Assembly: GCF_000746525.1 (NCBI RefSeq)
Contig: NZ_CP009048.1
Coordinates: 2,659,501 to 2,723,500 of the forward strand
Direction: 5' to 3'
DNA length: 64,000 nucleotides
From: Pseudomonas alkylphenolica
Lineage (GTDB): Bacteria > Pseudomonadota > Gammaproteobacteria > Pseudomonadales > Pseudomonadaceae
In this document: positions 48,031 to 60,481 of the stretch, piece after piece
Position numbering within the stretch: position 1 is the first letter of the stretch
How the letters are laid out: every line of letters begins with the position of its first letter
Notes under the pieces: model-generated
What the model was told of the DNA's origin: nothing
The model's input: the letters and a program-made list of their open reading frames with translations, nothing else
The model's database searches: none
Translations under genes and position numbers: made by a program

Positions 48031-49221
48031 TTACTTCAGACAGGTCTTCAGGAATTGTTCTCGGTCTTGATGCATCTGCAAGTGGGTTTTTCCTGCGGCA
48101 TACTCCAGACCGGCAAGGCCCATTTTCAGCGCAAGTTCCGGATGCCGCGCCGCATGAAGAATAGCCTCTGCCAGACTGGATGGATTCCCCGTTTCGAAGA
48201 TAAGCGCGGTGTCCTTGTCGGTAATATCCAGGATGCCGTAAGTGTCTGAGGCGATGACCGGGGTGCCCTGGCTGAACGCGTCGAAAATGATCCTCGGTTG
48301 TTCCTGCTTTAGCGTGGGAACCAGCACCCAGTCGTGGTGTGAAACGACCTTGAAGAATTCTTCTCCGTAATTGACGTTGTCTTGATACTTCACGGTGACG
48401 CCGCCATGGGGCTCCCTTGCAAAGTGCCGGCAGTTTTCTTCCAGATCGCCCGAACCCATGATGGTGATGTTTATATTCACGTCGTGGGATTTCAATTGCT
48501 CGATGGCGGCGAGCACAACAAGCACGCCTTTGTCGGCGACGAGGCGGGAGGGGAAGAGTATGTTCAGTTTGCCATCGGCTTTGTCATTGAATCTGCGCGT
48601 GACCGCTTCCGGATTTGTAAAATTGCTTTTATCCACCCAGGTTGCAGGGTTGATAAGTGTCCGGCGTTTCTCGTTGCCGAGAAAATAATCCCGGTAAAAT
48701 GATTGGGTGAATATTCTCGAATTTGCCGCCCTCAAACAACATCTCAACAGGGTTTTGTGAGCGTAATGTTCAATTGTTTTTCGAGGGGTTTTAGCCTCGC
48801 CCTGACCCAGCATCCAGAACGACGACTCGATGACGATAATCCATTGAAAGGGCATGAACGGCTTGAGCAGTAACAAATAAAACGACAAGGGGAACGCCCA
48901 GCCGGCACCATCGGAGTGAACGATTTTTGCTTGCTTGCAGGCCTTGATGACAGTGACAAAGTTTGGCAGGAAATTCTTGAGTACCGATAGAATGCCACGG
49001 TCATTCTTCAGCTCGAAAAGCCACTTTATATCCAGATCGCTAATGTCTTGCAGACCCTCCAGGCTTCTGCTTTTGACAACCGGGCAGCAGATGCCGAAGC
49101 TTTGTATGTAGTTCAAGTGCAGTTTCAGGTCTTTAGCCCACAAAGGGTCGGTAAATATTCTTCCTTGGCTGTCTTTCTTTATCACTATCCTGGTGAACAG
49201 GATGTAGGGCTTTTTGATCAT
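48031..49221 (-). CDS. Family-4-type glycosyltransferase
   Basis: 396 residues from ATG 49221. C-terminal GT-B half: ILFPSRLVADKGVLVVLAAIE, INITIMGSGDLEENC, and EQPRIIFDAFSQGTPVIASD; the second acid of the family EX7E motif is Asp here instead of Glu. The N-terminal half (residues 1-190) is less conserved. G+C is clearly lower than around it, and no other polysaccharide genes are next to it, which suggests acquisition. Its start overlaps the stop of a short lipoprotein-like frame (ATGA). Acceptor sugar unknown. Confidence 0.82.
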   Translation of the reverse strand: MIKKPYILFTRIVIKKDSQGRIFTDPLWAKDLKLHLNYIQSFGICCPVVKSRSLEGLQDISDLDIKWLFELKNDRGILSVLKNFLPNFVTVIKACKQAKIVHSDGAGWAFPLSFYLLLLKPFMPFQWIIVIESSFWMLGQGEAKTPRKTIEHYAHKTLLRCCLRAANSRIFTQSFYRDYFLGNEKRRTLINPATWVDKSNFTNPEAVTRRFNDKADGKLNILFPSRLVADKGVLVVLAAIEQLKSHDVNINITIMGSGDLEENCRHFAREPHGGVTVKYQDNVNYGEEFFKVVSHHDWVLVPTLKQEQPRIIFDAFSQGTPVIASDTYGILDITDKDTALIFETGNPSSLAEAILHAARHPELALKMGLAGLEYAAGKTHLQMHQDREQFLKTCLK

Positions 49222-49379
49222 ATTCCCCTCACATGGAGCTGCTGACTGCTGCAAGTGATCTTCCCTACGGTATCAACCACTTCATGTGATGAACAGGCTG
49301 TCAACGAGGACAGCAAAGATGCCATAAACACTGATTTACCTGAGTTTCGCGTTGACGAGCCAATCGTTTGTTTACCCAT
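49218..49379 (-). CDS. Candidate mini-lipoprotein coupled to the glycosyltransferase
   Basis: 53 residues from ATG 49379: a basic start (MGKQTIGSSTRNSGK), a hydrophobic stretch and a lipobox-like SLTAC, leaving a ~25-residue mature part with a second Cys. Its stop overlaps the glycosyltransferase start (TGA/ATG). The ribosome-binding site is weak (CAGG). It may be a true small lipoprotein, a leader, or the remnant of a longer gene. Confidence 0.4.
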   Translation of the reverse strand: MGKQTIGSSTRNSGKSVFMASLLSSLTACSSHEVVDTVGKITCSSQQLHVRGI

Positions 49380-49485
49380 AAACCTGAAAGCCTGCGCCAC
49401 CTGTTTGGCCAAATGTGTTCATCCCGACAGTGGGCGCAGGGAACGCAGTCCAGTGTCGTGTGCGGGCCAGCACAATGATGTCCAA

Positions 49486-49500
49486 TTGTCATCGTGACAA
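49486..49500. promoter_or_regulatory. Perfect 15-bp palindrome TTGTCA-TCG-TGACAA (second copy)
   Basis: Reverse complement of the site at 16511-16525. It is followed at once by AAAGGA (49504-49509) and an ATG at 49515, so it looks like an operator next to a start site, but the frame there ends after 32 codons in REP sequence. Confidence 0.5.
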
Positions 49501-49514
49501 ACGAAAGGATAGCC

Positions 49515-49613
49515 ATGCCCTACAAAATCGGGAGGGGTCGTCAGCTTTTTTTTAAACGGTACTGCCAGGCTCCCGGTGGGAGCGAGGCTTGCCCCGCGAT
49601 GCGATATATCTGA
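49515..49613 (+). CDS. Very short ORF (32 aa) after the second palindrome; remnant or leader
   Basis: ATG 49515 has AAAGGA 6 bases upstream. The frame runs MPYKIGRGRQLFFKRYCQ, then enters the REP (GGSEACPAMRYI) and stops. A run of eight T lies at 49546-49553. It may be what is left of a deleted gene, the REP having replaced the rest. I do not claim a product. Confidence 0.25.
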   Translation: MPYKIGRGRQLFFKRYCQAPGGSEACPAMRYI

Positions 49614-49652
49614 CAGTTCGCAATCGCGGGGCAAGCCCGCTCCCACCGGGAG
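49572..49652. repeat. REP inverted pair (REPIN), family A
   Basis: CCCGGTGGGAGCGAGGCTTG with CCCCGCGAT and an inverted copy ending GCCCGCTCCCACCGGGAG. One core base differs (GAGGC). It lies 10 bases after the autotransporter stop. Confidence 0.88.
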
Positions 49653-49661
49653 CCTGTGAGG

Positions 49662-52600
49662 CTAGAACTTGACCTTGATCCCGATCATCCCTTCGTAGCC
49701 GTGGCTATCGTTATCCAGCCCTTTTTCGTAGCCGGCAGAGACGTGGATCGTAGTCTTCTCGCTGGCTTGGTAGTCCACACCAAGGTTTACCTCAGTCCAA
49801 GTGCCGCCCAGATCAGTAGTGAAGGGGACAAAGCCGTCATGGGACGAGAACTCGGTTTTCGGTGAGCTTTTGAACTCGTGCCAGATGCTTGGGCGTACCC
49901 AGATGTTGGTGCGGTGCAGTTTGCCTTTGTCGTCCTCACGGAACATGTCTTTGTCGATGCGTACCCCCAGACGGCCTGTCAGCGAATCGACGTCTTCGAA
50001 GCGCACCTCGGAGGCGGCGTCGTGGCTGTCATTGATCTTGATCTTGCTGACAATCACCTGGGCTTGCGGCTCGATCTTCAGCGATTCGTCCTTGTTCAGT
50101 TTGAACGGATAACCGGCTTCCAGCGACGCGGTGATGCCTTTGCCCTTGGTTTTGAAGCGCGGCAGGTCTTGCGGGTTGGCCTGGATATCGAAGTGATTGA
50201 ATTGCAGCACACCGTCCAGGTACCAACCTGCCGGGCCAAAGTGCGTCCAGTAGCCACCCAGGCCAACGGCGCGGACCTTGGCATCGCCAGCGGCACTGCC
50301 ATCGGTGTGGTCGATGTCACCGGCGATCTTGCCGGCGGACAGCGAGATCCCGGCCTGATCGGTACTGCCATCGGTGTCTTCACCGTGGTACAGGTCGATA
50401 CCGACCTGGAACGCTTGCTGGCTGTAGTCATAACGGCTGCCGTTGTTCAGGTCCTGGTCGCCCTGGCCATAGATCAGGCGGCCCCAGCCCAGCGATGGGC
50501 CATAGTCGCTTTGCGCCTCGGCCGGGAGCGGCTCGACCGAATTACGTACTTCTTCGCCCATGCGTTCGTGCAGGGTGTCGACCAGCATGCGGCTGTAGCG
50601 CAGGGTCATGCCGGGGATGGCGCTGTACAGCGAGGTTTCCGGGCGGTAGTTGGGCACCTGAGGTGAAGGTTGAGTCGGATTGACGACGGGCTTCGGTGCT
50701 GGATCGACGGGGGCAGGGTCAACAGGAGTCGGGTCAACCGGGGTAGGATCAACGGGAGTCGGGTCAACCGGGGTAGGGTCAACAGGTGTCGGATCGACCG
50801 GAGTGGCATCCTTGGTCGAACGCAGGTACCAGGCCTGGGCATTGCTGTCGTCCAGACTGGCGCGGTGCAGGGTGTACTCGTACGGGCCAGCCTTGACCCG
50901 GCTGAGCAGTCTGAACGCTTGCTCCTGGGTGGTGCCACCGTTGATCGCATCGACGACCTGGATACCGTTGCCTTGAGTCAACGCGCCGGGGCCTCCGGCG
51001 TTTTTGATCTGCAGGTTGCTGCTGCCGCTTGCCTGGCCGCCATCGATGACCAGTTTGTCGGAGGGCGATTGATCGTCATACAGGTAGGTATTGAGGGCGA
51101 TGGTGCCGTTGTTGCCCTGGTATTGATTGGCCGTGAGGGTCTTGTAGCTGCCGCCGGAGGGGGCGCTGAAGTCGATCAGGCTGTTGTCGTTGCTCAGGCT
51201 GCTGAGGTTGGAGTTGCCGGTGAGTTTCCACAGGCTGGTGTCACTCATGCTCAGGTTCGAGGTGCTGCCCGATGCGGTGGTGGCGGTACCATTGACCTGG
51301 GAGCTTGCCAGGTTGATGGTGGCCAGGCCCGCCTGGTTTGCATTGGCATCGACGTGCAGCCATTGGCCGCTGCCGCCTGCGATCACGTCCTCGAAGTTGA
51401 TGTCACCGATGCCGTACACGGCGACGGTCGCGCCGTTCTGGTTATGCAGCACTGTGCTGCTCAGGTCGGCCTGGCTTACGCCAGTACTGCTGCCTTGCAG
51501 GTACAGGGCTGCAGCATTGCTGCCAGCGGCGCTTACCGTCGACTGCTCGGCGCTGAGCTGGCCGCCGTCCTTGACCAGCATGCCATGGGCGTCGGCGCCC
51601 TGGGTGATGACGCTGGCCTGTTTGAGGATTGCCGAGCTCGGGGCACTGTTGACCAGTACGCCATGGGCGCCGACGCCGCTGGTGCTGGCAACGCTGTTGT
51701 CGGCTTGTAACTGGCCGCCGCGTTCAGCCTGCAAGGCAGCCGAGTTGTCGCCGTGGGTGCGGATGCTGGAGTCCTTGAGCTCCAGGGTGGCGCTCAGGCC
51801 GTCCTTGAAGTTGCGGCTCACCCGGGCACCACTGGCATTGGCACCGAGAGTTTCGATCGTCACGCTGTTGGCTTCAAGCGAGACGTTGCCGGGTTTTGGG
51901 CCGCCGATGCCGGCGTACAGGCCAATCGAACGATCGCCTTCAGTCTTCACCGAAACGCCGTTGAGTTGCATGCTGCCACCGTCATCCACGGCGGCGCCGT
52001 AGGCCTGCTGGCCTTTGGTCAGAAGATGGGTGCCGTTGGCGATCAGCAGGGCGCCTTCATTGCGCGAGGCCAGGGCATGCGGGAAGGTCAGGTTGGACTG
52101 CACGGGAGAGCCGTCGCCGGAGGTGGTCACGGTGCCACCATTGAGGATCACGGTGGCGTTCTGGTTGGCGACCACGCCCATGGCATTGTCGTTGCCGGAG
52201 GTATAGACGTTGACGTTGTCGGCGGTGATCGTTGCGTTCCCGGCACTGATCCCGGTCGAGTAGTTGCCTTCGGTGCTGACACTGCCGTTGCTGATCTTGA
52301 TGTCTGCACCAGCGCCTGCGCTGATGCCATAACTGGTTTTCTGCGAGGTGCGGACCTGGCTGTCACTGAGCACCAGGGTCGAGCCTGCGCCGTCTACCAG
52401 CACGCCAGGCGACCAAGGGCCGATGGCGTTGATAGCGTCGACGGCAATCTTGCTTTGACTCACCTGAGCCTGAGCGCCGCCGGTGATGTTCAGGCCGATC
52501 GAGCGGGCGCCGAGTACCGAGATATCGCTGTCGGACACCACGGCCGTGCTGCCAGCGCCTTCGACTGACACGCCGTGGCCATAGGTGCCCTGGGCTGCCA

Positions 52601-53744
52601 GGACGCTATTGTCGATTACCAGGCTGCCGCCGGCCATGGCCCTGGCGGCTGCGCTAGGGTTGGTGACAACGCCGCCGCCAGTGACGCTGACGTGGCTGTC
52701 CTTGAGCGAGATGCTGCTGGCTTCGGCGCGCGCACCGCCCATGTAGCCACCGCTGGCGTTCACCTCCAGGCCGCTGCCGGTGATCTTCGAGCCACCCAGG
52801 GCATGTAGCACGGCGGTGGTCGAGGTGCTGCCCGCGGCGCTGGTGGAGTTGAAGGTACTGTCGCTCAGAATGATTTCGCTACCACCCTCGGCACGCGCAC
52901 CGCTGGAAGCCGCGCCACTGGTGTTGACGGTGATGTCATTGGCGCTGATCTGGCTGCCAGCTTCGGCTTTCAGACCATGGCTGATGTTGGTGCCGCTACC
53001 TGCGCCGCTGGTGGTGACCGTGGTGCCTTTGCTCAGCGCGATGCTTGCGCCGTCCTTGGCCAGCACGCCTACCGAGCCTTTGGCCAGGGTGCTGATGGCG
53101 CCACCGCTGAAGTCGATGGCACTGCCAGTGCCGCTGGCCAGCAGGGCGACGTTGTTGCTGCCAGTGGCGCTACCCATGCTGACCTGGCTGTTGGCGAGGC
53201 TGATCACACCGCCGTTTTGCGCGGTGACACCGGTCATGTTGCTGGCGGTGAAGGGCACCCCCAGGGCGGTCTGCGGGAGCATCTCGATACGTACACCGCT
53301 GCCGCTGATCTTGCCACCGGCTTCAGCCAGCAGGCCTTTCTGGCCATTGGCGGTAGCACCGGTCACGGCACCGTTGACGACACTGCCTTGCTCGAAGCTG
53401 ATCTGCACGCCAGCAGCGGCTTTCACCCCGATCGCATTGGCCGCCTTCAGTATGACGCTGGAGCTGTCCGCAACACCGCTGCTGATACCGATGCCATTGG
53501 CCACGGTGACGGTGATAGGTGCAGGCACACCGAGTAAGCCCATCAGGGCAACGCGGCCGATGCTCAGGCCGGCGTTCGATGGTTGTGGTTCTTCGCGAAG
53601 TTCGGTCGCTATCACCGCGTCTTCTGCTTGCGCATCCTCGATGGGCAGGTAGCACAGACTGCCGAGGATCAGGCTGATGGCCAGGGCCAGACGGTTGTGT
53701 GCCAGGTGGTCCAGAGGCAGTGCACTTTCGCTGATGTGTTTCAT
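49662..53744 (-). CDS. Type V secretion autotransporter adhesin (pertactin-like passenger, beta-barrel)
   Basis: 1360 residues from ATG 53744; GGAGG 5-9 bases upstream rejects an earlier in-frame codon at 53756. Signal peptide to about residue 40 (ending DAQA). The passenger (about 45-970) is built of short beta-helix repeats rich in Gly, Ala, Ser, Thr and Asn with recurring GA-S-STAVLSDS-type turns and few Cys. A proline-rich linker of VDPT units (about 978-1018) precedes the translocator barrel (about 1060-1360), which begins TSLYSAIPGMTLRYSRMLVD and ends with aromatic IKVKF. It is exported by Sec and BAM and shown on the cell surface, probably as an adhesin or biofilm factor. Divergent from an odd LuxR-type regulator. 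Confidence 0.92.
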   Translation of the reverse strand: MKHISESALPLDHLAHNRLALAISLILGSLCYLPIEDAQAEDAVIATELREEPQPSNAGLSIGRVALMGLLGVPAPITVTVANGIGISSGVADSSSVILKAANAIGVKAAAGVQISFEQGSVVNGAVTGATANGQKGLLAEAGGKISGSGVRIEMLPQTALGVPFTASNMTGVTAQNGGVISLANSQVSMGSATGSNNVALLASGTGSAIDFSGGAISTLAKGSVGVLAKDGASIALSKGTTVTTSGAGSGTNISHGLKAEAGSQISANDITVNTSGAASSGARAEGGSEIILSDSTFNSTSAAGSTSTTAVLHALGGSKITGSGLEVNASGGYMGGARAEASSISLKDSHVSVTGGGVVTNPSAAARAMAGGSLVIDNSVLAAQGTYGHGVSVEGAGSTAVVSDSDISVLGARSIGLNITGGAQAQVSQSKIAVDAINAIGPWSPGVLVDGAGSTLVLSDSQVRTSQKTSYGISAGAGADIKISNGSVSTEGNYSTGISAGNATITADNVNVYTSGNDNAMGVVANQNATVILNGGTVTTSGDGSPVQSNLTFPHALASRNEGALLIANGTHLLTKGQQAYGAAVDDGGSMQLNGVSVKTEGDRSIGLYAGIGGPKPGNVSLEANSVTIETLGANASGARVSRNFKDGLSATLELKDSSIRTHGDNSAALQAERGGQLQADNSVASTSGVGAHGVLVNSAPSSAILKQASVITQGADAHGMLVKDGGQLSAEQSTVSAAGSNAAALYLQGSSTGVSQADLSSTVLHNQNGATVAVYGIGDINFEDVIAGGSGQWLHVDANANQAGLATINLASSQVNGTATTASGSTSNLSMSDTSLWKLTGNSNLSSLSNDNSLIDFSAPSGGSYKTLTANQYQGNNGTIALNTYLYDDQSPSDKLVIDGGQASGSSNLQIKNAGGPGALTQGNGIQVVDAINGGTTQEQAFRLLSRVKAGPYEYTLHRASLDDSNAQAWYLRSTKDATPVDPTPVDPTPVDPTPVDPTPVDPTPVDPAPVDPAPKPVVNPTQPSPQVPNYRPETSLYSAIPGMTLRYSRMLVDTLHERMGEEVRNSVEPLPAEAQSDYGPSLGWGRLIYGQGDQDLNNGSRYDYSQQAFQVGIDLYHGEDTDGSTDQAGISLSAGKIAGDIDHTDGSAAGDAKVRAVGLGGYWTHFGPAGWYLDGVLQFNHFDIQANPQDLPRFKTKGKGITASLEAGYPFKLNKDESLKIEPQAQVIVSKIKINDSHDAASEVRFEDVDSLTGRLGVRIDKDMFREDDKGKLHRTNIWVRPSIWHEFKSSPKTEFSSHDGFVPFTTDLGGTWTEVNLGVDYQASEKTTIHVSAGYEKGLDNDSHGYEGMIGIKVKF
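50690..50812. repeat. 12-bp imperfect tandem repeats coding VDPT units in the autotransporter
   Basis: About ten 12-bp units on the minus strand coding (P)VDPT/A. Repeats of this kind change length by slippage and act as a stalk between passenger and barrel. Confidence 0.85.
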
Positions 53745-53895
53745 GGCAACCTCCAAAAATGTATGGAGGAAGTTTCTGCCTAGGCAGCTATTTACTCTGT
53801 AGGAGTGGCCTTAGCCGTTTGTAGGAACTTCACTGAAGGCCACGCTGGTCTAGGCTTGTTGATCAGGCCGGCGTTGGCCTGCAAGGAGGCGCCCA
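53745..53895. promoter_or_regulatory. Divergent promoter region, autotransporter/fused regulator
   Basis: 151 bases. AT-rich only near the autotransporter (about 53752-53805). Contains ribosome-binding sites GGAGG (for the autotransporter, minus strand) and AGGAGG at 53884-53889 (for the regulator). GTAGGAGTGGCC and GTAGGAACTT at 53801 and 53821 are direct repeats starting 20 bases apart. Confidence 0.4.
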
Positions 53896-55578
53896 ATGAG
53901 TCGGGTAATGATCGTCGAGCCACTACCGTTGTTGCGTCTGGCCATCGGCCAGGTGCTGCAACGCCTGGGGCATCAACTGGTAGCCGAAGCCGATAACGGC
54001 CAGGATGCGCTGCTGCACGCGCGTACTGATGCCCCGCAGCTAATCGTGCTTGAACTGGCGATCAGCGGCCTCGGCGGTCTCGATCTGATCCGCCGCCTGA
54101 AGCTGCGCGACCCGGCGTTGCAGCTGTTGGTGTACACCGGGCAGAGCAGCAGTCATTTCGCCCGGCTGTGTGTGCAGGCCGGGGCGGACGGGTTTGTCAG
54201 CAAACACGATGAGCCGCTCGAGCTGGAACGGGCATTGAGCGCCGTGGTGCACGGGCGCCGCTATTTCCCTCGGGATGCGCTGAATACACCAGCCCCGGTG
54301 GGTGGCAAAGAGCTGGACACGTTATCGGCGCGAGAACTGACGGTGCTGGAGCTGATCAGCGAAGGGCGCTCTAATCAGGCCATCGCCGAGCAGCTGTCGA
54401 TCAGTTACAAGACGGTCAGCACCTACAAAACCCGACTGCAGGAAAAGCTCCAGGTCGATTCGCGCCTGGCGTTGGCGACCATCGCGCAACGCAATGGCAT
54501 TGGCCAGTCGGGCGTGATGACGCCGGTCGAACCTGAGCTGCAAGCTGAAATGCTGCATGAGCCGGCGCAACAAACACTGTTGCGGGCCATGCTGGACGCC
54601 TCGCCCAATCCGATGTTCGTGCGTGACCGGGAGGGTCACTTGTTGATGTGCAATCAGCCCTTTCTGGCGCAGCACCATACTTCCCGGGAGCGGGTGCTGG
54701 GTGGGCGTCTGACGGACGCCTTCTGGTTCACGCCCGAGCAGGGCCGTACCCACCAGGCGCGGTATGAAGCGTTCATCGAAAAAGGTGAACCGTTCAGTTC
54801 GCAGAGAACCTTCGAGTTCCTTGGCGAGCCGCATTTTCTGCAGTACTGGGCCGAACCCTGGCGTGATGCCAGTGGCAACGTTGTAGGCATGGTGGGCAGC
54901 TTTGAAGACCTGACGGACCGGCAGATCCTCCTGGGTCAATTACGCGATGCCCACGAACAAGCCCGGGCCAGGTACCGGGAAGTCACCGGTTTTGCCCGGG
55001 TGGTCCATGAGGATCTGAACGAACCGCTGCAGCGCCTGCAATCCGGTCTTGGCAGCGCGCAATTGGCGCTTTCCGGCCAGGTCGCCTTGCAGCGTTTGAG
55101 CCTGCGTCTGCAACAACTGGAGCAGTTGGTCACTCTGGATCAGTTGCGCCCACCGCTGGTGCCGGTCCAGCTGGACATCGTTCAGTGGGTGGAAGCGCGA
55201 CTTGCGGCTTTCAACGCGCAGCTGCCTGCCGGTGGGACAATCTCGACGCTGGCCCTGGAAGGGGTGACGACCAGGCAGTTGTGGATCGATGGCGAGCGTC
55301 TTGGCACGTTGCTCGACAGCCTGATCCGCCACCTGAGCGAGGAGGCCATGCAAACACCCCTGCGCATCAGCCTGACCACGCGGATGCAGATCACTGGTGT
55401 GGTCACCCTGAACCTCGCAGTGACGCTCTGCCAACCCCTGGCCCACCGTCAAGGCATTGCTTTGCAACTGTGCCGAAACCTTACCCAGTCGATGGACGGC
55501 AGCTTTCGCGACGTCCACGAGAACGGCGAAACGGCGTTTCTGATCGAACTTGAATGCCCCGCAGCACTGCCAGCCTGA
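53896..55578 (+). CDS. Fused regulator: degenerate receiver-LuxR HTH-PAS-degenerate histidine kinase
   Basis: 560 residues. Residues 3-115 have a receiver fold (MIVEPLPLLRLAIGQVLQ, LIVLELAISGLGG, YTGQ, GFVSK) but the phosphoacceptor Asp is Glu53 and the acidic pair DD is EP; Thr81 and Lys103 remain. Residues ~143-200 are a LuxR/NarL HTH (LSARELTVLELISEG, AIAEQLSISYKTVSTYKTRL). Residues ~228-345 are a PAS domain (LDASPNPMFVRDREGHLLMCN). A HisKA-like helix follows with His371 in VVHEDLNEPLQ, then an ATPase-like region (~470-555) lacking clear N, G1 and G2 motifs. This order, regulator first and kinase last, is reversed from usual hybrids. It is divergent from the autotransporter and may control it. 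AGGAGG 6 bases before ATG fixes the start. Confidence 0.8.
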   Translation: MSRVMIVEPLPLLRLAIGQVLQRLGHQLVAEADNGQDALLHARTDAPQLIVLELAISGLGGLDLIRRLKLRDPALQLLVYTGQSSSHFARLCVQAGADGFVSKHDEPLELERALSAVVHGRRYFPRDALNTPAPVGGKELDTLSARELTVLELISEGRSNQAIAEQLSISYKTVSTYKTRLQEKLQVDSRLALATIAQRNGIGQSGVMTPVEPELQAEMLHEPAQQTLLRAMLDASPNPMFVRDREGHLLMCNQPFLAQHHTSRERVLGGRLTDAFWFTPEQGRTHQARYEAFIEKGEPFSSQRTFEFLGEPHFLQYWAEPWRDASGNVVGMVGSFEDLTDRQILLGQLRDAHEQARARYREVTGFARVVHEDLNEPLQRLQSGLGSAQLALSGQVALQRLSLRLQQLEQLVTLDQLRPPLVPVQLDIVQWVEARLAAFNAQLPAGGTISTLALEGVTTRQLWIDGERLGTLLDSLIRHLSEEAMQTPLRISLTTRMQITGVVTLNLAVTLCQPLAHRQGIALQLCRNLTQSMDGSFRDVHENGETAFLIELECPAALPA

Positions 55579-55588
55579 GTGCTGCGGG
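55558..55588 (+). terminator. Hairpin spanning the regulator's stop codon
   Basis: Perfect 11-bp stem CCCGCAGCACT/AGTGCTGCGGG with a 9-base loop; the TGA (55576-55578) joins loop and stem. A T-run (TTGTTTTTTT) follows only ~30 bases later, so it may be a stabiliser or a weak terminator. Confidence 0.5.
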
Positions 55589-55738
55589 CAGTTCCTTCAG
55601 AAAGAAATTAACCTGGTTGTTTTTTTATCACTGTAGGGATGAGCTGAAAGAGCCGTCCTACAGCGGTTTGCCGAACAACAGGTACAAGCGCAGAACCACG
55701 ACTACCCTGACTGAGGGATTCAGGCAGGAGCAAGGGAC

Positions 55739-57364
55739 ATGGGGAAATGGGTAAAGCGCTATTTATGTGTATTGTTCCTGCTATGGACGGTTGTTCACTA
55801 CCCCGTCAATGCCGCGCAGGATACTGCCGAGAACCTGGCACCACCGGCTGAGCTGAAAGTTGCCAACCGCAGCATTATTACCTTTCACGCGAGCCTGCTC
55901 GGAGAAGCACCTGCGGCGCGGGCACAGCGTGCACAGGCAGTGATCAACGAAATGCTCAACGGCACCGAAGACCCTGTCGTGCGCCTCGATACCATTCAGG
56001 ACAGCTACCTGGTGCTGTTGGGGGAACGCCGTGCGTTCATCGTCACGCCCAAGGATACCGACCCTGAAACATCGGTTGCCGACGCCGCCGCACAAGCCGC
56101 GCAACGCCTGAAAAAAGTGGTGGAGGAGTCGCAACAGGCCCGCAGCGTACGCTTTCTGTTGACCGCCGGGGGCATGAGTGCGGTGGCAACCTTGCTGTTC
56201 ATTGGTCTGTCGCGTCTTGCCGGCTTCGTTCATCGCAAACTGCTCTCACAGTTACCCAAACGCATACGCCGTCATCACGATGTGCTCAAAGTGGGGGAAA
56301 CCCCGCTACTGGATACCAGCAACCTGTTTCCGCTGATCAGGCGCCTGCTGGCATTGGTGTACTGGACCGTGGTGCTGCTGCTCACCTACGAGTGGCTGAC
56401 CTTTGTTTTGCAGCGCTTTCCTTACACCCGACCCTGGGGTGAAAGCCTTGATCATTACTTGCTGAACCTGCTCCGGTACGTGCTTGACGCCATCGTCAGC
56501 GCGATTCCGGGGCTGGTCATCGCCCTGATGATCTTTTTTATCGCGCGCGGGATCAGCGCCTTCAGCAAGCGGGTGCTGGAACGACTGTCCCGGCCCGGGA
56601 CCATCACCTGGCTCAACCATGAAACCTTGCAGCCGACTACGCGCTTGACGTCGCTGGCCATCTGGCTGTTTGCCCTGGCGATGGCCTATCCCTATCTACC
56701 GGGCGCAGGCACCGATGCATTCAAGGGTTTGTCGGTGCTGGTCGGCCTGATGATTTCCCTTGGCGCCTCCAGTGTGGTCGGGCAGGCGGCAGCAGGATTG
56801 ATCCTGACCTACACCCGCACCTTGCGTCCCGGCGAGTTTGTACGCATTGGCGAGCATGAAGGCACGGTGACCGAGCTTGGGATGTTTACCACCAGTATTC
56901 GTACCGGCCTGGGCGAGGTCCTGACCATACCCAATTCGATGATCACCGGGGCGGTGACCAAGAACTACTCGCGGGTGGTGCAAGGCGCCGGGTATGTGGT
57001 CGATACCGTTGTCACCATCGGCTACGACACGCCCTGGCGCCAGGTTGAAGCCATGTTGCTGGAAGCTGCGCAGCGTACTTCCGGGATTTTGCAGACGCCC
57101 AGTCCTCAAGTGTTCCAGACGGCGTTGTCGGACTTCTATCCGGAGTATCGCCTGGTCGCCCAGGCAGTGCCCAGCGAACCTCGGCCACGGGCAGAGCTGT
57201 TGAGCATGCTGCACGCCAATATTCAGGACGTATTCAATGAATACGGGGTGCAGATCATGTCGCCACACTATCTGGGGGATCCGCAGGACGAGAAGCGTGT
57301 GCCCAGGGAGCGTTGGTTCACGGCACCGGCGCAGCAGCCCGGTGAGAAGGGAGAAGGGCGATGA
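55739..57364 (+). CDS. MscS-family mechanosensitive channel
   Basis: 541 residues: a Sec signal (to about NAA at residue 25), a periplasmic domain, then at least four membrane segments. The MscS pore helix is visible as FKGLSVLVGLMISLGASSVVGQAAAGLI, followed by the beta domain (LRPGEFVRIGEHEGTVTELGMFTTSIRT) and IPNSMITGAVTKNYS. It opens under membrane tension to release solutes. Start at 55739 has AGGA-type sites (GCAGGAGC, 55724-55731). Convergent with the next gene across a strong hairpin. Confidence 0.88.
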   Translation: MGKWVKRYLCVLFLLWTVVHYPVNAAQDTAENLAPPAELKVANRSIITFHASLLGEAPAARAQRAQAVINEMLNGTEDPVVRLDTIQDSYLVLLGERRAFIVTPKDTDPETSVADAAAQAAQRLKKVVEESQQARSVRFLLTAGGMSAVATLLFIGLSRLAGFVHRKLLSQLPKRIRRHHDVLKVGETPLLDTSNLFPLIRRLLALVYWTVVLLLTYEWLTFVLQRFPYTRPWGESLDHYLLNLLRYVLDAIVSAIPGLVIALMIFFIARGISAFSKRVLERLSRPGTITWLNHETLQPTTRLTSLAIWLFALAMAYPYLPGAGTDAFKGLSVLVGLMISLGASSVVGQAAAGLILTYTRTLRPGEFVRIGEHEGTVTELGMFTTSIRTGLGEVLTIPNSMITGAVTKNYSRVVQGAGYVVDTVVTIGYDTPWRQVEAMLLEAAQRTSGILQTPSPQVFQTALSDFYPEYRLVAQAVPSEPRPRAELLSMLHANIQDVFNEYGVQIMSPHYLGDPQDEKRVPRERWFTAPAQQPGEKGEGR

Positions 57365-57762: not shown

Positions 57763-58144
57763 GGCACGAGGTCCTTGTGGCGTATGAGTTTGACGCCAGC
57801 TGCGATAGCCGGCGCGTCCTCAGGCGTTACACATCCTTGTTGACGCACTGATAACTTATGTTTGAGATTCAAAGTTCAATGTAAGAATGTTCTTACAGTT
57901 CTCCAGACTCTCGTAACTATCGAGATGTATATCTTCCGAAAGTTATTGCTGAACATAACTTATTGAACTTTTCTCGTCCACTCGCACGCGGTGCCTCGCC
58001 GTCAATCAGCTGCTGTTTTTGGAATAAATCCTAGGCCTTTTTGGAATTTCGCTCGGCTGCTGGCGCAAAGATGCACTAGCCTAAAGCCCGCAGACGCTAA
58101 AGCGCCCGGCACAGGGCGAGATCGAATCGACCGTGGAGCAGTGA
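57763..58144. other. Long AT-rich intergenic region before the octahaem cytochrome gene
   Basis: 382 bases without a credible ORF. The middle (57845-57970) is AT-rich with short dyads (for example GTAAGAATGTTCTTAC at 57881-57896, a perfect 8-bp inverted pair) and should hold the promoters of both divergent genes. Direct repeats TTTTTGGAAT at 58016 and 58038 are listed separately. Confidence 0.5.
58016..58047 (+). promoter_or_regulatory. Direct repeat TTTTTGGAAT, 22-bp period, upstream of the octahaem gene
   Basis: Two exact copies at 58016-58025 and 58038-58047, two helical turns apart, 97 bases before the start codon. This phasing suits an activator binding one face of the DNA. Confidence 0.4.
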
Positions 58145-60481
58145 ATGGGGCACGACAAGGCTAGGGACAGTTGGCTGTCCGGATTTCGGCACGGATTGCG
58201 TTCAGGTGTGATGCTGATGGTGTTGTCGGCGCTGGTCCCGGCCTGGGCCAACCCGACGTCTGCTGGATCGCCCGCACAGGCCGGTTCGGCCCAAGGTTAT
58301 GTTGCCACTGCCACCTGCCTTGGCTGTCACGCCGAGCAAGCCAAACAGTGGCAAGACTCCGACCATGGCTGGGCCATGCGCGACGCTACGGCCGCCAACG
58401 TACTGGGCAACTTCAAGAACGCGCAGTTCGATGAGGCCGGGGTCAACGCCAGGTTCTTTTCCAAGGGCAAGCGCTTTTACGTCAACACCGAGGGCGAGGA
58501 GGGCAAGCCTGCGGATTTCGAAATCCTCTATACCTTCGGGCACTACCCGCTGCAGCAGTACCTGGTGGCTTTGCCCCGTGGCCGGCTGCAGGCGTTGACC
58601 ATTGCCTGGGACAGTCGCAGCAAGGAAGAGGGCGGGCAACGCTGGTTCTCGCTGTACCCCGGCCAGCGCTTTGCCCCCAACGATCCCTTGCACTGGACCG
58701 GCCGTTACCAGAACTGGAATGGCATGTGCGCCGACTGCCATTCGACGCGGCTGATGAAAAACTACAACGACCGCGAAGACAGCTTTGCCAGTACCTGGCA
58801 GGAAAAGAATGTCGGTTGCCAAAGCTGCCATGGGCCTGGTCAGGCGCATGTCGATTGGGCAAAAACGGCAAAGCCCGCTGAAAAGACCTATTCCTCAGCA
58901 ACCGAAACAGGGCTGGCGGTGGATTACAAAGCACTCGGTAGCCAGGGGCTGGTCGAGCAATGTGCTTTTTGCCACAGCCGTCGACAAACCCTTGGCGTCG
59001 GCCAGATGCCCGGGCATCCACAACTGGACCAGAGCCTGCCGGCGACCTTGCGCAGGGATCTCTACCACGCCGATGGCCAGATTGATGGCGAAGTCTACGA
59101 ATATGGCTCGTTTACCCAGAGCAAGATGTATGCAGCGGGGGTAGGCTGCACCGATTGCCATAACCCGCACACCAGCAAAGTGAAGGTCGAAGGCAATGGC
59201 CTCTGCCTGCAGTGCCACAATAGCCAGGCGCCGGTCGCCCGTTTTCCCAGCCTGCAGGCCAAGGACTACGACAGCGAGGCGCACCATCACCACCCGGCAG
59301 GCACGCCCGGCGCCCAGTGCGTCAATTGCCACATGCCGACGAAAACCTACATGGTGGTCGATCCCCGGCGTGACCACAGCCTGCGTATCCCGCGGCCGGA
59401 CCTGGCGAGCAAGGATGGCAGCCCGGACGCCTGTACGGCCTGCCATCAGCAGCAAACGCCGCAATGGGCGGCCAAGGCCATCGAAGGCTGGTACGGGCAG
59501 CCGCAGCGTCCGCCGCACTATGGCGAGAACTTCCACGCAGTGCGCAGCGGCGAGGGGATCGCCTTCAGCGAACTCAACGCGGTATTGGCCGACAAAGGCA
59601 AACCGGCGATTGTCCGGGCTTCGGCCGCTGAGCAGATGGCCGATCTCGGTGCCCGCTCGGTCATCAGCCTGGGCTGGGCGCTGCAGGACAGCAGTGCGCT
59701 GGTGCGTGCCTATGCCGTTTCAGGCTTTGCCAGCGTTCCCCCGGCGCAACGCCTGCAGCCGTTGTTGCCGCTACTCAAGGACCCGACCCTGGCGGTGCGC
59801 GATGAAGCTGTCAGGGCGTTGGCCGATGTACCGGCAGAGCAATTGCCTGCCGAGTCGCGCGAGTCGTTCAAGACCCTGCTGGCTGACTACGAGCAACGCT
59901 TGCGCGGCAACGCCGACCTGCCCGGTGGCCGCCTCAATCTGGCCGTGCTGTTGAGCCGCCAGGGGCGCGATGCCGAAGCGATGGACGAGTATCGCCAGGC
60001 CTTGAAACTGGACCCGTATTTCGTTCCCGCCCGGGTCAACCTGGTAACCCTGCTCAGCGCCTCGCAGCAGCTGAATCAAGCAGAACAGGTTCTGCGCGAA
60101 GGACTCGCGCTGGAGAAAATGCCGACGGCTGACCATGGCAACCTGGCGTACATGCTCGCCTTGCTGCTGGTCGAGCAGGGCAAGGCCGAGCAAGCGCTGG
60201 AGTGGATGCAAACCGCGGCCGTGGCGTTGCCGGACAACACCCGGATTCGCTACAACCAGGGCTTGCTGCTGTCGCGCCTGAACCGTCGCGATGACGCCAT
60301 CAATGCACTGCGCAGTGGTCTTGAGCAGTCACCGAACGATCCAGACCTGCTGTATTCGCTGATCTATCTGCATGCCCTGGCGGGTGAGCGCAGTGAGGCT
60401 TTCGAGTATGTGCAGCGCATGCGCAAGGTCGCCCCCGATGATCCACGTTTGCAGGGGATCGAGCCTTACTGGCAGCAGTGA
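58145..60481 (+). CDS. Periplasmic octahaem cytochrome c with HEAT-like and TPR repeats
   Basis: 778 residues with GGAG 6 bases before ATG 58145. Signal peptide to about residue 36 (ALVPAWA). Eight CXXCH sites in order: CLGCH (58-62), CADCH, CQSCH, CAFCH, CTDCH, CLQCH, CVNCH, CTACH, all before ~residue 440. The first part resembles the cytochrome c554 family. A HEAT-like region (~480-580, SVISLGWALQDSSALVRAYAV) and TPRs (~595-770, LNLAVLLSRQGRDAEAMDEYRQALKLDP) follow. Redox role unknown; the TPRs suggest a partner protein. No maturation or nitrite genes are adjacent. Confidence 0.85.
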   Translation: MGHDKARDSWLSGFRHGLRSGVMLMVLSALVPAWANPTSAGSPAQAGSAQGYVATATCLGCHAEQAKQWQDSDHGWAMRDATAANVLGNFKNAQFDEAGVNARFFSKGKRFYVNTEGEEGKPADFEILYTFGHYPLQQYLVALPRGRLQALTIAWDSRSKEEGGQRWFSLYPGQRFAPNDPLHWTGRYQNWNGMCADCHSTRLMKNYNDREDSFASTWQEKNVGCQSCHGPGQAHVDWAKTAKPAEKTYSSATETGLAVDYKALGSQGLVEQCAFCHSRRQTLGVGQMPGHPQLDQSLPATLRRDLYHADGQIDGEVYEYGSFTQSKMYAAGVGCTDCHNPHTSKVKVEGNGLCLQCHNSQAPVARFPSLQAKDYDSEAHHHHPAGTPGAQCVNCHMPTKTYMVVDPRRDHSLRIPRPDLASKDGSPDACTACHQQQTPQWAAKAIEGWYGQPQRPPHYGENFHAVRSGEGIAFSELNAVLADKGKPAIVRASAAEQMADLGARSVISLGWALQDSSALVRAYAVSGFASVPPAQRLQPLLPLLKDPTLAVRDEAVRALADVPAEQLPAESRESFKTLLADYEQRLRGNADLPGGRLNLAVLLSRQGRDAEAMDEYRQALKLDPYFVPARVNLVTLLSASQQLNQAEQVLREGLALEKMPTADHGNLAYMLALLLVEQGKAEQALEWMQTAAVALPDNTRIRYNQGLLLSRLNRRDDAINALRSGLEQSPNDPDLLYSLIYLHALAGERSEAFEYVQRMRKVAPDDPRLQGIEPYWQQ

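Follow-up and report, generated by a model that had tools for sequence, protein, structure and literature searches.

Within the window analysed here, a stretch of 64,000 nucleotides of the genome of Pseudomonas alkylphenolica, a soil-type Pseudomonas (RefSeq assembly GCF_000746525.1, contig NZ_CP009048.1, positions 2,659,501–2,723,500), a gene for a one-chain regulator is transcribed divergently from a gene for a large autotransporter. The regulator combines a receiver (REC), a LuxR-type helix-turn-helix (HTH), a PAS domain and a kinase-like tail, and the residues expected to carry phosphate are replaced in both the receiver and the tail. How such a protein could be switched, and whether the adjoining surface protein is its target, are the questions raised by this locus. 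The sequence data suggest that the regulator needs no phosphate and, under PAS control, activates both its own gene and the adjoining adhesin gene, a reading that we consider rather likely. The arrangement is real and well conserved, and its interest lies more in the family than in the single locus.

The divergent gene pair described in the initial annotation, with its ATG-to-ATG gap of 151 bp and its 1360-residue autotransporter, agrees with the coordinates and open reading frames (ORFs; Table 1). The outline given there of a receiver with Glu53, an intact LuxR HTH and a PAS domain was borne out by Pfam matches to Response_reg (63.2 bits) and GerE (67.4 bits), over the spans given in Table 1, and to PAS_4 (residues 233–343; 46.0 bits), as well as by direct reading of the residues (E8-P9, E53, T81, K103 and H371-E372-D373). 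The protein carries the REC and LuxR HTH of the BvgA/EvgA-type (NarL/FixJ) subfamily; EvgA is its best PDB match (residues 4–203; E = 1.7e-29), although the score against the NCBIfam EvgA model (124 bits) lies under the model cut-off of 251. The only PDB sequence match of the PAS domain at E≤0.01 is the PAS domain of BvgS (6zj8; E = 4.6e-15). With neither a phosphorylatable Asp nor the acidic pair (E53; E8/P9), a domain still recognised as REC has its phospho-Asp replaced, as in pseudo-receivers (aspartate-less receivers). By its sequence, the regulator is thus a variant of the BvgA/BvgS kind whose receiver falls under the definition of a pseudo-receiver.

Residues 346–560 had no Pfam match, HisKA and HATPase_c being absent from the matches even at E≤1. 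A profile of the tail was compared by hhalign with BvgS-like kinases (15 of 20 fetched kinase stretches). The comparison revealed a HisKA-HATPase relic, with homology over both HisKA and HATPase_c (206 columns, probability 95%, E = 3.8e-8). His371, taken in the initial annotation for the kinase residue, is present but lies one residue off the H-box: the phospho-His column is occupied by Glu372 in both the phmmer alignment with a relative carrying a recognisable kinase and the hhalign alignment of the tail profile, and several close relatives carry L, Y or S at residue 371. An intact kinase in which His371 accepts the phosphate was rejected on the basis of this column. The ATP motifs, previously described as weak, are instead absent: the N-box Asn column holds H479, the alignment has gaps where the G1 box and ATP lid would be, and G2 is only partly retained. 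Taken with Glu53, these losses uphold the earlier view of a doubly degenerate protein with no self-contained phosphorelay. The 560-residue chain, consisting of REC, HTH, PAS and tail only, also lacks the remaining parts of the BvgAS relay, i.e. a separate periplasmic VFT sensor, a second REC and Hpt.

Comparison of five orthologue pairs gave dN/dS values of 0.07–0.13 for REC, 0.03–0.09 for HTH, 0.08–0.16 for PAS and 0.17–0.23 for the tail, compared with 0.42–3.06 for an 18-codon linker (dS was high in some of the pairs). The low value of the tail, combined with the loss of its catalytic residues, indicates that it is retained for something other than catalysis. A decaying pseudogene was rejected, since the six orthologous copies (window included) are stop-free and dN/dS is low. 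An assembly error was likewise rejected, as the fusion has more than 100 relatives, several of them in single-contig genomes.

The fusion architecture, mostly with Glu, recurs in more than 100 proteins, far more often than chance would allow. A protein search, in which only the 8000 candidates with most words in common were scored, returned 59 matches, of which P0001–P0042 share the architecture (three of these are fragments). Further relatives were drawn from 249 genomes of the genus (five candidates scored in each) and 398 of the family (three in each). In the 398 Pseudomonadaceae genomes, fusions (≥424 bits) are separated by a clean gap from stand-alone regulators (≤316 bits), and at least 75 fusions were detected in 35 genomes, representing three of 19 genera; counts in multi-copy genomes are too low because few candidates were scored per genome. 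The family search at E≤1e-60 extended to 198 genomes and 4 genera, but this figure includes stand-alone regulators, the only kind of match in the fourth genus. Regulators at least 75% identical to that of the window occur in 3 of the 249 genus genomes, the window's own included. No fusion was found at E≤1e-95 in 368 other genomes of the class, one or more of them from Pseudomonadaceae, when three candidates were scored in each; a family spread across the class was accordingly rejected, the window's own genome being the only match among 369. A mobile plasmid family was also rejected, since none of six plasmid records at E≤1e-30 covered over 80% of the query. One relative (P0038), with its contig of origin taken as labelled, is named in its record as a metagenome-assembled genome of Rhodocyclaceae. 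The fused family is undescribed in the titles and abstract openings of the open-access PMC literature searched.

Among 124 aligned rows (fragments P0017, P0030 and P0041 dropped; the 36 database rows include some near-copies of loci), the phospho-Asp column contains Glu in 91, Asp in 32 and another residue in one, whereas T/S81 and K103 are retained in 127 of 127 rows. The phospho-His is found in 8 of the 124 and the N-box, called by text pattern, in 38, but in no row do they occur together. Restricting the table to loci and the window (88 rows) gave E in 56, D in 31, another residue in one, His in five, the N-box in 36 and both in none. The Asp/Glu column changed at least eight times on a tree of 115 rows, and the Pfam PAS domain was detected in all nine fusions scanned.

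As judged by sequence comparison, both halves of the regulator are homologous to known partners, namely a BvgA/EvgA-like regulator and a BvgS-like kinase. Outside the fusions, the closest receiver-HTH proteins are EvgA/BvgA-like regulators with an intact Asp. In 11 of 21 stand-alone control loci a kinase gene of approximately 1200 codons is next in line, with the regulator gene first in all 11, and three of three partner kinases scanned have the BvgS make-up (two SBP_bac_3 domains, PAS, HisKA, HATPase, REC and Hpt). The regulator-first order of the fusion, noted in the initial annotation, is therefore real, but it reflects the usual gene order of bvgA-bvgS-like operons and not the new logic to which it was thought to point. 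In a tree of PAS-kinase parts, the 32 fusions included (of the 124 rows) form one clade (support 99), sister (support 87) to BvgS-like kinases, among them seven partner kinases, all of which possess SHEIRTP and the N-box.

BvgA-like genes were also found near the fusion in five loci (L097, L119, L122, L126 and L133); in L122, L126 and L133 a kinase gene separates the BvgA-like gene from the fusion, with a YadA-like gene further on. On the Rahnella plasmid NZ_CP089920.1, the reading frame of an EvgA-like regulator continues past two stops into a hydrophobic segment (recognised by eye; the annotated kinase start lies past it) and PAS-HisKA-HATPase-REC-Hpt. This kinase has no periplasmic domains, retains SHEIRTP and an intact-looking core, and a fimbrial operon adjoins. 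The window's own genome encodes a BvgA-like regulator elsewhere (L053; G000:C1:1265642-1266289), with no kinase gene seen adjoining and with TGTAGGACCAATCCTCTA 137 bp upstream of its ATG.

The initial annotation named the autotransporter as a likely target and proposed looking for the same pair in other genomes. The pair proved to be intact in six distinct orthologous loci, window included, with outer neighbours partly different among those compared, and family-wide linkage and conserved half-sites support the proposed target. Of 87 fusions, 57 have a gene for a type V adhesin (an autotransporter, a YadA-like protein or TpsA) at a distance of at most 2.5 kb, although many of the loci are related, so that the counts are not independent, and the hidden Markov models used were built from 13 adhesins and three TpsB proteins of the same loci, which brings some circularity into the detection of close relatives. 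In 12 of the 57 (all 12 that were scanned), Pfam confirmed the adhesin type. The 87 fusions exclude the window, two duplicate records (L054 = L031, L087 = L032) and three fusions missed by the gene caller or the fetch border (L145 and G306:C2:65899, each with a TpsA gene beside it, and L089, with none). Three adhesin types in three orientations are represented: (i) autotransporters (24 divergent, 4 convergent, 2 co-directional), (ii) YadA-like proteins (18) and (iii) TpsA (9). By contrast, no type V gene was found at any of the 21 stand-alone sister regulators, over about 9 kb on each side (two shortened by contig ends). With 'none' counted as a state, and rows without a locus left uncounted, the neighbour class changed at least 15 times on the tree.

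Of the 30 fusions with no type V gene nearby, 18 lie at one purine-permease locus and two in a related tandem (L094); three are located by an MFS gene, one by an SbcC-like gene and one on a 4.6-kb contig, and two are others (L047, L128). The last three adjoin other surface proteins: an usher and fimbrial protein (L103), a giant cadherin/Ig protein (L139) and a VWA/Ig protein (L134). The fused family adjoins surface-adhesin genes as a rule and probably turns them on.

The shared intergenic region contains candidate sites for this control. In seven aligned sequences (six distinct strains, including the window), CTGCCTAGGCAG is invariant and two copies of TGTAGGA are found 22 bp apart, the second being CGTAGGA in one strain. 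The arrangement TGTAGGA-N15-TGTAGGA occurs twice in the 5.76-Mb genome, compared with no control matches. The 7-mer TGTAGGA/TCCTACA was detected upstream of 22 of 25 divergent autotransporters but of none of 34 other adhesins, and within 300 bp of 28 of 89 regulators (two duplicates included) as opposed to 52 of 842 other genes. Of 20 stand-alone sister regulators parsed, 17 have TGTAGGA in the 400 bp upstream, and in two of these the 22-bp repeat of the window recurs. In 22 of 28 cases a CTAG/CTATGC-type element lies 30–47 bp downstream of the site, compared with 7.6% of shuffles. One large clade carries an 18-bp inverted repeat, TGTAGGA-N4-TCCTACA, present within 3 mismatches in 17 of 88 regulator upstream regions (15 of these from this 16-row clade), as against 0.4 in shuffles and 21 of 842 other genes. 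A regulon search with this repeat (≤2 mismatches) gave 19 genome sites, but genome-wide calls from it are unreliable because the reversed pattern gave 14; no adhesin gene was seen by eye in seven stretches around genome motif sites. A sigma-70 consensus scan of 49200–55900 found no promoter-like site.

Table 1. Features of the regulator-autotransporter locus (positions in the window; the operator and the -10 region are predictions)
Feature	Position	Strand	Basis
One-chain regulator, 560 aa, REC-LuxR HTH-PAS-pseudokinase tail	53896..55578	+	ORF, Pfam, same-architecture relatives, stop-free
Pseudo-receiver, residues 4–113	53905..54234	+	Pfam Response_reg, residue table; E8/P9 replace the acidic pair, T81/K103 retained
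Glu53 codon, phospho-Asp position	54052..54054	+	Residue table
LuxR/GerE helix-turn-helix, residues 141–197, intact, EvgA-like	54316..54486	+	Pfam; PDB EvgA alignment
PAS domain, residues 228–343	54577..54924	+	Pfam, PDB match
Pseudokinase tail, residues 346–560, HisKA-HATPase relic	54931..55575	+	hhalign vs BvgS-like kinases
Glu372 codon, column of the phospho-acceptor His	55009..55011	+	phmmer, hhalign
Shared intergenic region, 151 bp	53745..53895		ORF ends
CTGCCTAGGCAG, perfect 12-bp palindrome	53776..53787		Invariant in 6 distinct orthologous loci
Two TGTAGGA half-sites, 22 bp apart (putative operator)	53798..53826	+	Conservation, genome motif count
GTCTAGGCTTG element, possible -10 region of the regulator	53848..53858	+	Its CTAG starts 30 bp past the start of the second half-site
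Classical (type Va) autotransporter, likely adhesin, 1360 aa	49662..53744	-	ORF, Pfam

In the scheme that we infer from these observations, a bvgA-bvgS-like (EvgA/EvgS-like) operon would have collapsed to one soluble protein that no longer has the periplasmic sensor, the membrane segment, the second receiver or Hpt. The fused chain would then have abandoned phosphate chemistry: the phospho-His is gone, this clade has no nucleotide pocket, and Glu stands where the phospho-Asp was. Glu53, together with the retained T81 and K103, may keep the receiver in or near an active, dimer-competent state, its activity being proposed to be independent of phosphorylation, while the tail would serve as a dimerisation and allosteric scaffold. 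The signal would enter through the PAS domain, kin of the redox/quinone-linked PAS domains of BvgS and EvgS, which would decide whether the paired HTHs bind DNA. Binding to the TGTAGGA half-sites in the gap would activate the promoters of both the regulator and the autotransporter, much as BvgA acts at the divergent bvgAS-fhaB region. A broader version, to which we give slightly less than even chances, envisages a Pseudomonadaceae one-chain class built once from a BvgA/BvgS-type phosphorelay, in which phosphate signalling has been wholly dropped in favour of PAS-to-HTH allostery via a pseudokinase scaffold, most copies are locally assigned to one adhesin, and partners have been exchanged many times among types Va, Vb and Vc.

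Several observations weigh against these proposals. In the receiver-HTH tree the stand-alone proteins form one group (support 97), with the fusions on the other side with negligible support (2), which is compatible with a single origin of the fusions without proving it. The family is not adhesin-exclusive, given the 30 fusions without a type V gene, and stand-alone regulators do occur in fusion-YadA loci in five cases not counted among the 21 controls. Co-directional and convergent adhesins lack the 7-mer. The three MFS-transporter loci retain the half-site without an autotransporter, and stand-alone sisters have half-sites without an adhesin; the operator could thus serve autoregulation alone. 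The half-sites of the window have no good second arm, the best site having 4 mismatches in 14 positions to the palindrome, and TGTAGGAG is part of Pseudomonas REP elements. Finally, Glu as a phosphate mimic is reported to work in some receivers and to fail in others (PMC12632262, PMC4395418), and the idea of an 'always on' Glu53 is unproven.

Taken at face value, that idea leads to a constitutive activator, in which Glu53 locks the receiver on, the PAS domain and tail switch nothing, and control is exerted by the amount of protein through autoregulation. In receivers without the Asp, Glu is described as the most frequent substitute and as able to mimic phosphate (PMC4395418, PMC12632262), the T/S81 and K103 positions are invariant, and the half-sites in the regulator's own promoter suggest autoregulation. 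However, the PAS domain and the tail are both under purifying selection and PAS was present in every fusion scanned, so that we regard this explanation as unlikely, albeit one to be taken seriously. Repression of the autotransporter, relieved by a PAS signal, is less probable still. Binding within so short a shared gap could block both promoters, but a site 30–47 bp upstream of the CTAG element appears more activator-like, and in the nearest characterised system BvgA is reported to activate at fhaB (PMC2225982).

It is also conceivable, but improbable, that the regulator chiefly controls itself or distant genes and that the adhesin is its neighbour by chance or through co-transfer as an insertion module. 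The half-sites preceding stand-alone sisters without adhesins, the 30 unlinked fusions (three of them by other surface proteins) and the patchy distribution of the window's pair fit this view, yet the linkage recurs with three unrelated adhesin classes, through repeated changes of neighbour class and in contrast to the sisters, and the pair has stayed intact in the orthologous loci although their outer neighbours partly differ. Cross-talk, whether by an outside kinase phosphorylating the receiver or by heterodimers with a BvgA-like regulator, appears very improbable. It would draw on the 32 rows that retain Asp, on the BvgA/BvgS-like pair directly upstream of the fusion in the three loci listed above, and on the window genome's own BvgA-like regulator, which has a similar site and no adjoining kinase in sight. 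In the window protein, however, Glu53 and Pro9 leave neither the phosphorylation site nor the metal-binding pair intact, and no kinase was found with Pfam and family models among the three neighbouring genes scanned. A phosphate-independent activator under PAS control is thus the reading that we prefer.

The closest counterpart is BvgAS/fhaB of Bordetella, in which bvgAS and fhaB are reported to be divergently transcribed (PMC7253368) and BvgA sites to be inverted or direct heptanucleotide repeats (PMC2225982). The locus in the window shares with it the BvgA/EvgA-type receiver-HTH, the ancestry of its PAS and kinase parts in BvgS, the divergence from a type V adhesin gene and repeated heptanucleotide sites. 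It differs in consisting of one soluble chain with no periplasmic domains, second receiver or Hpt, in having Glu for Asp and no phospho-His or nucleotide pocket, and in adjoining a classical autotransporter instead of TpsA. EvgA/EvgS of Escherichia coli also resembles it, EvgA being the best PDB match and PAS standing ahead of the kinase. There, two proteins pass phosphate through the steps of a working phosphorelay, unlike the single chain without phosphate residues found here. EvgAS is described as inducing acid resistance, and its EvgS PAS has been proposed as a redox/ubiquinone-linked switch (PMC8174306). VFT-less forms of BvgS, such as BvgS1 of B. petrii as reported in PMC2572626 and the Rahnella kinase, likewise have a PAS-transmitter with no periplasmic domain, but in these the regulator and kinase are still separate proteins and the Rahnella kinase core looks intact.

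In pseudo-receivers such as ChxR, RitR and AmiR, the phospho-Asp is replaced, mostly by Glu, and the second acidic residue is often lost, according to PMC4395418. The regulator shares the replaced Asp and the altered acidic pair with them, but in this case the likely controlling PAS and pseudokinase tail are part of the same chain and the ancestry is traceable. A 2025 perspective describes the switching of pseudo-receivers on and off as a mystery (PMC12632262). The fused family offers a natural series for its study, with Asp or Glu receivers and tails with or without the N-box, no member being seen to combine His with the N-box; the receiver and its controlling domains share one chain, and a reporter gene is often adjacent. 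It further suggests a path from a phosphorelay to a one-component regulator, the split in-frame form being visible in Rahnella, and predicts a regulator for many uncharacterised type V adhesins in Pseudomonas.

The autotransporter itself, one of four autotransporter barrels in the window's genome, comprises 1360 residues from its ATG (the longest frame, of 1364, begins with TTG at 53756). A signal peptide (recognised by eye), a passenger, a PVDPT-type linker, the autochaperone AC_1 (138.9 bits) and the Autotransporter beta-domain (150.6 bits; both over the Pfam cut-off), ending in a C-terminal Phe, are the parts of a classical (type Va) autotransporter. It is likely to be an adhesin, judging from its likeness to MisL- and Ag43-type models, against which both scores are far under the cut-offs. 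The linker ahead of the barrel is encoded by a degenerate 15-bp tandem repeat (50701–50804), whose copy number may vary between strains.

Very close regulators differ in the presence (L113, L116, L127) or absence (L118, L124, L125, L130) of a divergent autotransporter, and all seven have the half-site, which makes them a comparison of presence and absence set up by nature. The orthologous fusions of the purine-permease group (L092, L098, L100 and similar; recognised by recurring ORFs, Pfam having been run on L092) mostly have Glu and the N-box, without the phospho-His, and lie by a xanthine/uracil-type permease and purine-breakdown-like genes (identified by eye) instead of an adhesin, in two cases as a tandem pair (L115, L121). 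A second role of these fusions in purine use is possible. Elsewhere in the window, a perfect 18-bp palindrome, TGTAAGAATGTTCTTACA (57880–57897), is similar to the operator motif, each arm having one change, and is located upstream of the gene at 58145, which by eye encodes a multihaem cytochrome/TPR protein.

Just downstream of the autotransporter, a gene for a family-4 glycosyltransferase (48031–49254, minus strand; Pfam Glycos_transf_1) has a low third-position GC content (0.62). No such gene was called next to the pair at L032, L033 or L048, whereas a 90% identical copy adjoins the same regulator-autotransporter pair in P. putida 31303 (L031). The enzyme possibly acts on the adhesin or on the surface.

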